A stretch of DNA of 64,000 nucleotides from Stenotrophomonas sp. ZAC14D1_NAIMI4_1 (lineage in GTDB: Bacteria > Pseudomonadota > Gammaproteobacteria > Xanthomonadales > Xanthomonadaceae): the NCBI RefSeq assembly GCF_003086775.1, contig NZ_CP026001.1, forward strand, positions 398,429 to 462,428. Reading direction: 5' to 3'. Below the pieces are notes generated by a model, which worked only from the letters and a program-made list of their open reading frames with translations, was not told the DNA's origin and did not search any database. Shown here piece by piece: positions 51,463-54,582 of this stretch. The position numbers were made by a program, and so were the translations under genes. Within the stretch, counting starts at the first letter, position 1; each line of letters starts with the position of its first letter.

Positions 51463-53030
51463 GGCATGCCGCGCGGGTGGCGTCGGGTTTCCTGGCGCTG
51501 GCTGCCATGCCTGCCGTGGCGGCGGAACCGGCGGCCACCGCCGCCATCGATGCCGATGTCGCCGCCGTGGTCCAGCACGAGCATCTGCCCGGGCTGGCCA
51601 TGGCCGTGGTCGAGCACGGAAGGGTGGTTTACCAGCACGCCGAAGGCGCGCGCGGTGATGGCGGCCGCATCGACGAGGACACCCTGTTCAAGATCGCGTC
51701 CAACAGCAAGGCGATGACCGCCGCGCTGCTGGCGCGCCTGGTGGAGCAGGGCCGGCTGCGCTGGGATGACCCGGTGCGCAAGCACCTGCCCGGCTTCACC
51801 ATGCATGACCCGTGGGTGGGCGAGCACATGCAGGTGCGTGACCTGCTCATCCACAACAGTGGCCTCGGCCTGGGCGCCGGCGACCTGATGCTGTGGCCGG
51901 AGCCCAACGCCTATACCCGCGCGGACATCATCGCCGGCCTGGCCCACCTGAAGCCGGTCAGCAGCTTCCGCAGCGGCTACGCCTACGACAACCTGATGTA
52001 CGTGGTGGCCGGTGAAGTGGCGGCCGCCGCCGGCGGCAGACCCTATGACCAGTTGCTGCGCGAGCAGGTATTCGAACCGCTCGGCATGGACCGCTGCCAG
52101 GTGGGCGCGTGGTCGGTGAAGCGCGTGGGCAACGTCGCCCAGCCACATGCCTGGCGCAAGGGCCGCAACGTGGTGATCAACGCTGACGCAGCGATCAGCC
52201 CCGACCTGACGTCGATGGCCGCCGGTGGCATCCGTTGCTCGCTGCGCGACATGACGCGCTGGATGCAGGTGCTGCTGGACCCCGCGCTGGTGCCCGGCTG
52301 GCTGGGCAGCGACCAGCGGCGCACGCTGTGGACCCTGCACATGCCGATGCCGCTGGGCGAGCGCCAGCGTCGCTGGGACAACGCGCACTTCATGGGTTAC
52401 GGCTACGGCTGGCGTGTCTCGGACATGGACGGGCAGTGGAAGGTGGCGCACACCGGCACGCTGTCGGGCATGTATTCCTCGCTGGCCCTGCTGCCGGACC
52501 GCAGGGTGGGCGTGGTGATGCTGATGAACGGCGAGGGCGAGGATGCACGCACGGTGCTGATGCAGTCGGTGCTGAAGCGCTTCACCGCCCCTGCGGAGGG
52601 CCAGACTGCGCTGGGCTATCTGCAGGCGTTGGCCGATGAGCGGAGCCGGACGGATGTGATCGGCCACGTTGATGAGTATCTCGATCCGATCGCGCCCGCC
52701 GGTACCGGCGCGCTGAAGGCGCAGCAGGGGCGCTACCGTGATCCCTGGCTGGGCGAGGCCACGCTGTGCCCGGTCGCGGGCACGCTGCGGTTCGAGGTGC
52801 TGCGCTCGCCGAAACTGGCTGCGACCGTGATGCAGCAGGGGCGCCGGTGGCGGTTGCACTGGGATACGCTGGAGGCATCCGCGCAGGCATGGCTGCAGCC
52901 CGGTGACGGTGACCCGCCCACGCTGCAGCTGCGCGCCATCGATCCGGACATCGACTTCAGTTATGACTTCCAGGACCTGCATTTCACTCGGATTGGCGAT
53001 TGCCCTGGCGGGCAGCACGCACGCCGCTGA
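51450..53030 (+). CDS. Class C beta-lactamase-type serine hydrolase
   Basis: A 526-residue exported serine hydrolase of the S12/penicillin-binding superfamily. Start GTG overlaps the receptor gene's end by 13 bp. The catalytic residues are visible: Ser84-x2-Lys87 (SNSK), YDN in the second motif and HTG in the third. The N-terminal domain is followed by a C-terminal beta-rich part (about 400-520). Likely acts as a D-aminopeptidase, esterase or DD-peptidase on cell-wall peptides; it is longer than resistance beta-lactamases. Confidence 0.88.
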   Translation: MELLRHAARVASGFLALAAMPAVAAEPAATAAIDADVAAVVQHEHLPGLAMAVVEHGRVVYQHAEGARGDGGRIDEDTLFKIASNSKAMTAALLARLVEQGRLRWDDPVRKHLPGFTMHDPWVGEHMQVRDLLIHNSGLGLGAGDLMLWPEPNAYTRADIIAGLAHLKPVSSFRSGYAYDNLMYVVAGEVAAAAGGRPYDQLLREQVFEPLGMDRCQVGAWSVKRVGNVAQPHAWRKGRNVVINADAAISPDLTSMAAGGIRCSLRDMTRWMQVLLDPALVPGWLGSDQRRTLWTLHMPMPLGERQRRWDNAHFMGYGYGWRVSDMDGQWKVAHTGTLSGMYSSLALLPDRRVGVVMLMNGEGEDARTVLMQSVLKRFTAPAEGQTALGYLQALADERSRTDVIGHVDEYLDPIAPAGTGALKAQQGRYRDPWLGEATLCPVAGTLRFEVLRSPKLAATVMQQGRRWRLHWDTLEASAQAWLQPGDGDPPTLQLRAIDPDIDFSYDFQDLHFTRIGDCPGGQHARR

Positions 53031-53676
53031 GCCACCACGCATCTCGCCAGCCACCGATGCGGCCAGCGCCGGCCTCCTGGAGATCCGCACGCTGGCCCCG
53101 CAGATCGAGATGGACATCCGTTACGCCGGCCGCAACAACTTCACCGGCGCGCGCGTGCCGGGTTACGAGGCGCCGTCGTGTTACCTGCTGGCCCCGGTGG
53201 CAAAGGCATTGGCTGCGGTGGAGCGTGATCTTCGTGGGGAGGGTTACGCGCTGCGTATCTACGACTGCTATCGCCCGGTGCGTTCGGTGCAGGCCTTCAT
53301 GGCCTGGGTGAACGATCCGCACGAGCAGTCGCGCAAGGCGCTGCAGTATCCGGGGCTGGACAAGCCGCGGCTGCTGGCCGATGGCTACATCGCCGAGCGC
53401 TCGGGCCACAGCCGGGGCGCGACGGTGGACCTGGGGCTGCTGGATTGCCGGGCCGGCGCGTGCGTGGTGATGGACATGGGCACGGATTTCGATTTCTTCG
53501 GCGTGCGCGCGCATACCGACGCGGCGGGGCTGACGGCGGCGCAGCGCGGGAACCGGCAGCGGTTGCTGCAGGCGATGGCGCGGCGCGGGTTTGCCAACTA
53601 CCCGCAGGAGTGGTGGCACTACACGCTGCAGCCGGAACCAGATGCCGGCACCGCGTACGATTTTCCCGTGAGGTGA
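52963..53676 (+). CDS. ddpX: D-alanyl-D-alanine dipeptidase (VanX/DdpX family)
   Basis: A 237-residue zinc dipeptidase that cuts D-Ala-D-Ala. Zinc ligands His149 and Asp156 (SGHSRGATVDLG) and His219, with catalytic Glu216 (EWWH), are in place. A signal peptide (to about THAA) suggests periplasmic location. The start overlaps the serine-hydrolase gene by 68 bp, so the start is uncertain and translation is probably coupled. It salvages D-Ala from stem peptides. Confidence 0.93.
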   Translation: MTSRTCISLGLAIALAGSTHAAEPPRISPATDAASAGLLEIRTLAPQIEMDIRYAGRNNFTGARVPGYEAPSCYLLAPVAKALAAVERDLRGEGYALRIYDCYRPVRSVQAFMAWVNDPHEQSRKALQYPGLDKPRLLADGYIAERSGHSRGATVDLGLLDCRAGACVVMDMGTDFDFFGVRAHTDAAGLTAAQRGNRQRLLQAMARRGFANYPQEWWHYTLQPEPDAGTAYDFPVR

Positions 53677-53759
53677 TGGGGTTTTTTGCAGGGCTTGCAG
53701 CCCTGCACCTGCTTCAAGCCAGGGCAACGTCAACTTCAAGAGCTGGCTTCCTGTGGGAT

Positions 53760-53861
53760 GGCGGGGTGGGTCCGGTTGAGGGGGACGCCGTAAACCCATC
53801 CATGGGGGCTTGGTCGCGCCATCCATGGCGCTCACACCCCCTCAACCGGACCCACCCCGCC
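53760..53861 (+). repeat. Foldback element A: 25-bp perfect stem with 52-nt structured loop
   Basis: Arms 53760-53784 and 53837-53861 are perfectly complementary. The 52-nt loop contains two inner hairpins, CCCAT-CC-ATGGG and GCGCCAT-CC-ATGGCGC. Element B at 54007-54108 has the same loop in reverse orientation but a different stem. Confidence 0.88.
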
Positions 53862-53904
53862 TTCGACAGTTTTTCGCAACCTGTCGGAACGGCGTTCTGC
53901 TCTG

Positions 53905-53981
53905 GTGGGTGCCGACCGCTGGTCGGCACGGATGAATTCATTCGATGTCTGACAGATGTGCCGACCAAGGTCGGCACCCAC
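53905..53981. repeat. SMAG-like inverted pair with GTGG heads
   Basis: GTGG-headed copy 53905-53929 (arm GTGCCGACC) faces CCAC-ended copy 53958-53981. This is the same stem type as the array at 62.9-63.9 kb but with the head changed from GTAG to GTGG. Confidence 0.82.
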
Positions 53982-54006
53982 CAACAGCCGCCGGCCAACT
54001 GTCGAA

Positions 54007-54108
54007 GGCGGGGCACTGTGGGTTTGCGGGGTGTGAGCGCCATGGATGGCGCGACCAAGCCCCCATGGACGGGTTTACGGCGTCCCCGCAAACCCACAGT
54101 GCCCCGCC
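54007..54108 (-). repeat. Foldback element B: 25-bp perfect stem with the same loop inverted
   Basis: Arms 54007-54031 and 54084-54108 pair perfectly. Read on the reverse strand, the loop differs from element A at one base, which keeps a G-T wobble in the inner hairpin. The stem differs from element A at ten positions, each matched by a change in the other arm. Confidence 0.88.
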
Positions 54109-54210
54109 ATCCCACGGAATGCAGGCTCTTGCTGTTGCTTCTGCAGGTGCAGGGCTGCAAGCCCTGCCGATACCCTTACACTCACTACCGCCTCCCAACT
54201 GCCCACCCGC

Positions 54211-54582
54211 ATGAACCTTCCGCTGCACTTCGGCCTGCTCGGCTCGCTCGAAGCCGGTGCCATCGCCCTGCTGGTCGGGCTGCTGGTGTACTTCCTCTGG
54301 CATCACCTGTGCCGCGTGTTCCGCTGGTCCATGGGCCATGCCATCGGCTGGGCCTGCGTGTTCGCGGTGGCCATCTCCGCCGGCATCGATATGTGGAAGC
54401 TGTTCTACATGGGCATCGTGCGGCTGGAATCACCGCTGTATGCGCGCATCTTCCTCTCCACCATCCACGACCCCAACGAACTGGGCAGCCGCGTGGTGCT
54501 GGAAATCGCCGGTGCGCTCTCCGGCGTTGCATTGGGATGGCTCTTGTTCAGTTCGCGGTCATCTGCGCAGAACGTCGATTGA
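54211..54582 (+). CDS. Small inner-membrane protein of unknown function
   Basis: A 123-residue protein with three hydrophobic segments (about 12-35, 47-65 and 97-115). No ribosome-binding site is evident. It starts 44 bases after the foldback region. No family recognised. Confidence 0.68.
   Translation: MNLPLHFGLLGSLEAGAIALLVGLLVYFLWHHLCRVFRWSMGHAIGWACVFAVAISAGIDMWKLFYMGIVRLESPLYARIFLSTIHDPNELGSRVVLEIAGALSGVALGWLLFSSRSSAQNVD

Follow-up and report, generated by a model that had tools for sequence, protein, structure and literature searches.

CsrB/RsmY-type CsrA-sequestering small RNAs come from a few dedicated sRNA genes with many sites, and bacterial MITEs such as Correia/NEMIS and ERIC are short and non-coding, bear terminal repeats and in some cases fold as RNA. 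The Rfam family TwoAYGGAY (RF01731), which shares clan CL00106 with CsrB, is listed for human gut, gammaproteobacteria and Clostridiales in the accessible text of PMC2864571; that of PMC4333381 proposes a CsrA-binding role for it and still calls it a family of unknown function. According to the accessible part of PMC7652899, SELEX with CsrA gave the consensus RUACARGGAUGU, in which ACA and GGA never vary, and ANGGAN loops are bound by RsmE.

The repeat analysed here, found in a 64,000-nucleotide window (the whole stretch of Stenotrophomonas DNA studied), shares features with each of these systems. Like TwoAYGGAY, it has a long outer stem closing two hairpins with AYGGAY loops when aligned to the family consensus, and by eye it also has the common CAUGGAUG loops, AG between the hairpins and CGG..CGUC after the second hairpin. 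Unlike that family, it scores below the cut-off, exceeds 100 copies in some genomes, and lies in MITE-like units or inverted pairs whose arms differ from copy to copy. It has the repeated GGA hairpins of CsrB/RsmY-type RNAs, but the repeat is dispersed, each copy carries two sites and no promoter is known for it. Correia/NEMIS and ERIC elements are likewise short and non-coding with terminal repeats, whereas the conserved part of this element is an internal core common to unit types with different ends. As with SMAG/REP/REPIN sequences, copies are intergenic, numerous and arranged in inverted pairs, and a SMAG-like pair lies between the window foldbacks; the stems of ~20-38 bp, the 52-nt branched core and the absence of a GTAG tag are different, and no GTAG-tagged 20-40 bp palindrome of the REP/SMAG kind was present in the foldback copies inspected.

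Searches of the open-licence PMC literature brought up no account of such a Stenotrophomonas repeat or of CsrA-type hairpins in MITEs, and the accessible portions of PMC4383904, PMC9788540 and PMC12889724 do not mention the element. A first-pass annotation of this DNA knew of no named element with this plan. As regards the pairing into modules, the number of copies and the mobile units, this agrees with what the searches of open-licence papers brought up, but the two-hairpin core does resemble TwoAYGGAY.

Results and discussion

Architecture of the window module

The module is a 480-bp inverted region (53688-54167) containing foldbacks A (+) and B (−), and sits between a D-Ala-D-Ala dipeptidase gene (Peptidase_M15, 52903-53676) and a small ORF (54211-54582) that has no Pfam match. 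Its parts are as follows.

53688-53712: left terminal inverted repeat with a GCAGGGC palindrome; perfect 25-bp inverted match to 54143-54167
53760-53784, + strand: left arm of foldback A; perfect 25-bp stem
53785-53836, + strand: 52-nt conserved core of foldback A, TCC sense on +; covariance model match 53760-53861, 116.2 bits
53797-53804, − strand: CATGGATG site 1 of core A, a CsrA-type motif by sequence
53820-53827, − strand: CATGGATG site 2 of core A, by sequence
53837-53861, + strand: right arm of foldback A; perfect 25-bp stem
53855-53871, partner 53997-54013: inner inverted repeat CCCCGCCTTCGACAGTT, an inverted match
53903-53983: SMAG-like inverted pair in the spacer; arms 53903-53917 and 53969-53983
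54007-54031, − strand: arm of foldback B; perfect 25-bp stem
54032-54083, − strand: 52-nt conserved core of foldback B, TCC sense on −; covariance model match 54007-54108 (−), 112 bits
54041-54048, + strand: CATGGATG site of core B, by sequence
54064-54071, + strand: CATGGACG site of core B, by sequence
54084-54108, − strand: arm of foldback B; perfect 25-bp stem
54143-54167: right terminal inverted repeat, pairing with 53688-53712; homology to the related locus L187 resumes at 54168

The main claims of the first-pass annotation about this region were confirmed: two 102-base foldbacks, A (53760-53861, +) and B (54007-54108, −), lie in opposite orientation, each with a perfect 25-bp stem and a 52-nt loop, and their stems differ at 10 of 25 positions (counted by eye) with every change matched in the opposite arm. 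The outer inverted repeat (53688-53712/54143-54167) is perfect over 25 bp and provides the terminal inverted repeats expected of a MITE; the same kind of ends was found in 23 of 57 paired modules under a strict pattern. Two other claims hold with a qualification. The loops do differ at one base (A or G opposite T), but pairing is kept there only as G-T on the TCC-reading strand; on the non-TCC strand the change falls at the edge of an AYGGAY loop. The central pair does resemble SMAG, but its sequence, GGTGGGTGCCGACC, departs from the published consensus GTAGTGCCGGCCGCTGGCCGGCA (accessible text of PMC2613905), which other SMAG copies in the genome match. Hexamer tracts (AACGTC, AACGGC, CGAAGC and others) occupy the interval between outer palindrome and foldback in the window (53713-53750) and in many other modules of this genome.

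RNA folding of both foldbacks was stronger than in 200 of 200 dinucleotide shuffles on either strand, with z scores of −7.8 (A) and −7.1 (B) for the TCC-reading strand and −8.0 (A) and −7.8 (B) for the other, which we call the NGGA strand. For the NGGA strand of the window copies, the fold predicted to have the lowest energy joins the two CCAUGG cores to each other in place of two hairpins; one Methylotuvimicrobium copy is predicted to form two separate hairpins. A chance foldback is ruled out by the copy number, the shuffles and the zero matches in controls.

Copies and pairing in the host genome

The annotation had proposed a search with the 52-nt loop alone, and this returned many further copies with different stems, both in the window's own 4.7-Mb genome (G000), which holds about 140, and in related species. 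The strict loop pattern matched 105 times in G000 and its reversed control 0 times. A covariance model built from 27 copies, with the best 150 candidates scored in G000, identified 140 full-length copies at E<1e-9 in the 69 genome stretches searched. The sequence TTCGACAG follows many copies of the foldback A stem type.

Copies are arranged with a consistent polarity. Among neighbours less than 1500 nt apart (n=56, from the best 150 places), the order was '+-' in 55 cases, '--' in one and '-+' in none; '-+' occurred 8 times among the 150 places at distances of 1500-6000 nt, that is, between modules. Grouping, which included 13 weak partners chosen by hand, gave 94 loci: 57 '+-' pairs, one '+--', 21 '-' singles and 15 '+' singles. 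The spacer in '+-' pairs is 122-733 nt long (median 204), and module length is 480-606 bp in 20 of the 23 modules measured, those sharing the outer palindromes. A second module type (G000 positions 610649, 2157044, 3725062 and 4071753, loci L085, L109, L134 and L139) has an extra 9-11 bp stem around the foldback, CGTGGNTGG/CCANCCACG-like, in which by eye some changes are matched on both sides.

The module locus in relatives

One relative (G021, locus L173) carries the module at the orthologous locus. A check for inversion of the spacer among strains had been suggested; L173, the sole orthologous window locus aligned over its full length, is collinear, and no inversion was seen there. Twelve other relatives have the dipeptidase gene, none with a convincing foldback beside it (best 36 bits, at L189, upstream of the matched gene). 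The interval between aligned flanks is ~534-571 nt in the window versus 46-80 nt in L189-L192, which are only 73-79% identical; it is 111 nt in L188 and 50 nt in L197. L187 has 149 nt with module-like remnants, and its alignable sequence resumes at 54168, just past the right inverted repeat. L193-L196 hold 148-672 nt of other content, and L198 has no downstream match. This pattern fits insertion or loss of the module. By eye, no target duplication was seen at 53688/54167 or beside any of the 23 modules that share these outer palindromes, though the true ends may lie up to ~15 nt further out.

Distribution in Gammaproteobacteria

Matches were found in 23 of 41 relatives, the host genome included, and copy number is very uneven: 25 genomes of the genus range from 0 to at least 98. 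When the class was sampled evenly and 10 candidates were scored in each genome, the core was detected in 65 of 369 gammaproteobacterial genomes and 57 of 271 genera; among the matches listed are Methylomonas, Methylotuvimicrobium, Chromatiales, Acidihalobacter, Sedimenticola, Thiohalomonas, Plasticicumulans, Parahaliea and Idiomarina. In three genomes (G129, G217 and G278), the arms of the 16 copies displayed are unrelated within a genome and form stems of 20-38 bp with 0-2 mismatches; in some genomes there are, in addition, families of copies that have one arm in common. Loci from other orders (n=28) comprise 27 single copies, judged within ~1.5 kb on either side, and one pair. Several matches in G107, G400 and G006 lie within ~300 bases of contig starts, so draft assemblies may undercount the elements. 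In G011 (L166), a ~950-bp stretch holding the foldback is duplicated in tandem.

An origin in phages or plasmids is unsupported. Among 72,556 plasmids there were 13 weak core matches, one of which covers >80% of the core and lies beside an IS256-type transposase gene on a Shewanella aestuarii plasmid. The 50,697 phage records gave 4 core matches, E. coli genomes none, and viral contigs 2 stretches with the exact core pattern, one with a Stenotrophomonas-type stem.

Mobile units in Methylotuvimicrobium

With 150 candidates scored in each, Methylotuvimicrobium buryatense 5G gave 112 matches and Methylomicrobium sp. wino1 gave 83. The two genomes are mostly 90-96% identical at shared loci, and comparison revealed clean empty sites in wino1 for a ~165-bp foldback-holding unit (L404 versus L411; L422:13573-13737). 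The flanks at L404/L411 and L422 show a 9-10 bp duplication, the overlap at L422 being 9 bp. These units have inverted-repeat ends CAGCAATTCCC, a pattern that occurs 318 times with two mismatches allowed and 0 times in the control. Both ends were located in 15 copies, 13 of which are flanked by exact direct repeats of 9-10 bp. The core is also carried by another type of unit, whose TATAC ends are flanked by TA. The foldback in Methylotuvimicrobium thus sits in MITE-like units, and it is there only that transposition-like insertion was observed. The comparison of G085 with G225 revealed no empty site, this pair being too divergent to show one.

In M. buryatense, a ~120-150 bp sequence with its own ATCC hairpins lies inside the core hairpin loop at L295:4422-4825 and L295:5918-6067, and is absent from L403. 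Several model matches there are 149-151 nt long, which suggests that the insert is a site-preferring second element.

Of the three identities offered by the first-pass annotation, a non-autonomous mobile element agrees with the many copies with different stems and the units that move in Methylotuvimicrobium, and a structured RNA agrees with strand-biased mismatches (below) that point to a folded single strand. The two are supported together; a recombination site has no support here.

The core resembles CsrA-binding RNA

On its reverse strand, the core presents a pair of CANGGA hairpin loops spaced by 23 nt, which resembles the CsrA motif in the literature. Of 127 distinct G000 copies, 126 contain CANGGA twice; so do 33 of the 36 distinct copies drawn from 33 other genomes, a set reduced from 38 rows by dropping one antisense duplicate and one row longer than 110 nt. 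GGA-GGA spacing is 23 nt in 118 of 126 G000 copies and 32 of 34 from other genomes, and the base before GGA varies between copies. The copies therefore have the ANGGA in paired hairpin loops that characterises CsrA-type sites.

Against the Rfam TwoAYGGAY model, element A scored 33.7 bits (− strand, 53753-53868), with a gathering cut-off of 43 bits that was reached by 0 of 17 G000 matches (best 37.8 bits). Matches to miRNA and similar Rfam families were weak and below cut-off, and were disregarded. CsrA (PF02599) was detected in 60 of 65 element-bearing genomes versus 253 of 304 others (one-sided Fisher 0.042, tallied by eye), a weak association; the five element-bearing genomes in which PF02599 was not found are G048, G109, G140, G235 and G381, one of them 98% complete.

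From these likenesses we infer that the element works like a CsrA ligand, as a candidate member of the CsrA-binding RNAs, and CsrA binding appears to be the best-supported and most testable reading of its role. In the proposed mechanism, a variable, nearly perfect stem of ~20-38 bp would present two small CANGGA-loop hairpins, 23 nt apart, on one strand. When the NGGA strand is transcribed, the two loops could bind the two faces of a CsrA/RsmA dimer, and the element would serve as a CsrA decoy or tether. This effect on CsrA might be the reason why mobile elements of different kinds carry the foldback. In Stenotrophomonas, the structure would have become an inverted two-copy module with terminal inverted repeats and copies facing each other, such that a transcript crossing the module either way would carry one copy in the binding sense. 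That the foldbacks are copies of a repetitive, mobile-element-borne, CsrA-ligand-like structure acting as a CsrA decoy or tether has, in our estimate, an even chance of being correct. Weighing against it are the TwoAYGGAY scores below cut-off, the joined CCAUGG cores in the predicted window fold, an NGGA strand that is the more stable one in a minority of cores from G000, its relatives and Methylotuvimicrobium, a mismatch bias that falls short of significance in the relatives taken alone, the mostly antisense placement of single copies and the lack of a sigma-70-like promoter in the module (all detailed below or above), the element-bearing genomes in which CsrA was not found, and the confinement of observed transposition to Methylotuvimicrobium with no target duplication seen at the window module.

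Stem covariation and strand-biased mismatches

The compensated changes seen in the window extend to the wider set. A comparison of 26 distinct copies showed two-sided changes at 23 of the 25 stem pairs and gave a covariation score of 0.591, compared with 0.148 for shuffled and at most 0.092 for slid controls; covariation was found for the three helices that vary. The wider G000 set holds 79 distinct left arms in 127 distinct rows, and 2404 of 2457 stem cells are Watson-Crick. Where orthologous sites were compared between species of the genus, in blastn segments of ~78-94% identity, the element in many cases keeps its position and orientation, and stem and loop type are often swapped as a unit (L177 versus L081, L180 versus L090).

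The remaining mismatches are strand-biased. Read on the TCC strand, A-C mismatches exceed G-T, corresponding to G-T wobbles on the NGGA strand. Each distinct event was counted once, and copies failing the loop pattern or with stems shorter than 15 bp were dropped; distinct events were preferred to the raw cell count of 65:4, which held 26 cells at pair 2, a stem-end position. The NGGA-strand G-T:A-C counts were 24:2 in G000, 9:4 in the relatives (p 0.27, not significant alone), 36:13 in other gammaproteobacteria and 18:1 in Methylotuvimicrobium, giving a pooled 87:20 (p 4e-11) without double counting between groups. The bias is alike in + copies (38:3) and − copies (33:1) of G000, stem-end cells included. 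Since stem mismatches are mostly G-T on it, the NGGA strand probably folds single-stranded, as RNA or DNA; a strand bias of mutation may be an alternative source of the mismatch bias. If the NGGA strand is the folding one, the paired foldbacks of a module make use of opposite DNA strands. The core itself is more stable on the NGGA strand in 78 of 86 cores from other gammaproteobacteria, and in 17 of 59 from G000, 20 of 45 from relatives and 11 of 23 from Methylotuvimicrobium, so that the preference is clear only outside these genera. A DNA-only palindrome without strand preference, an idea based on few G-U cells in a small set, was overturned by the strand-biased mismatches of the larger set.

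These data also bear on a different explanation, in which the structure acts as a DNA-level palindrome: folded single-stranded DNA would be recognised by a nucleoid protein, gyrase or a transposase, as for REP sequences, and template-switch correction would keep the arms perfect. Stems that are nearly all Watson-Crick, whole elements swapped at conserved sites and a REP-like placement, intergenic and beside SMAG, are all consistent with it, and one folding DNA strand would also give the G-T bias. The core is, however, common to two unit types whose ends and target duplications differ, which makes it unlikely that one transposase needs it; a conserved GGA preceded by a variable base is more in keeping with CsrA recognition, and the copies inspected lack a GTAG tag at the stem base. 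On balance we regard the DNA-level explanation as unlikely, at roughly one chance in five.

Gene context and transcription signals

By crude ORF rules, as distinct from annotation, the 57 two-copy modules have convergent neighbours in 19 cases, same-direction neighbours in 12 and 11, divergent neighbours in 8, and neighbours not called or a position inside an ORF in 7. Many elements lie ~70-95 nt from a stop codon, and among copies in other genomes (n=36), both neighbours were called for 28, of which 24 face the 3' end of one gene or more. For single copies in G000, the same crude calls place the NGGA strand mostly antisense to the gene ending beside it (17 of 21 '-' and 8 of 15 '+' singles). 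A promoter scan found no sigma-70-like promoter in the module. A terminator-like hairpin with a T-run (53664-53681; 0.6 expected in shuffles) overlaps the dipeptidase stop codon directly upstream of the module.

Both the distance to stop codons and the convergent neighbours, together with the gene 3' ends faced in other genomes, would be expected if the element acted at gene ends in both directions, its long stems ending transcription or blocking exonucleases between convergent genes and its loop sequence being secondary. We consider this rather improbable: it leaves the conserved core and the strand-specific mismatches unexplained, no T-run follows the window stems, and the upstream hairpin at 53664-53681 already provides a terminator-like structure. 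Neutral hitchhiking, with the core a remnant spread inside MITEs and of no host-level effect, agrees with the uneven copy number and with a core riding on MITE-like units, but is more doubtful still, because retention across 57 genera with fixed GGA spacing and a strand-specific mismatch bias is unlike neutral decay.

Implications

The repeat is real, widespread and mobile in at least one lineage. Returning to its reading as a CsrA ligand, a bolder and, on present evidence, improbable extension is that a single CsrA-ligand module was exchanged among, or reached by convergence in, miniature transposons of Gammaproteobacteria that are not related to one another. The module would serve as a selfish decoy, tying up CsrA, a global post-transcriptional regulator of the host, in proportion to copy number. 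If so, genomes with more than 100 copies would carry a distributed CsrA sponge. A TwoAYGGAY-like architecture occurring as a high-copy, mobile, strand-biased repeat in dozens of genera would account for a class of intergenic palindromes and would allow manipulation of the Csr/Rsm system by mobile elements to be tested directly.
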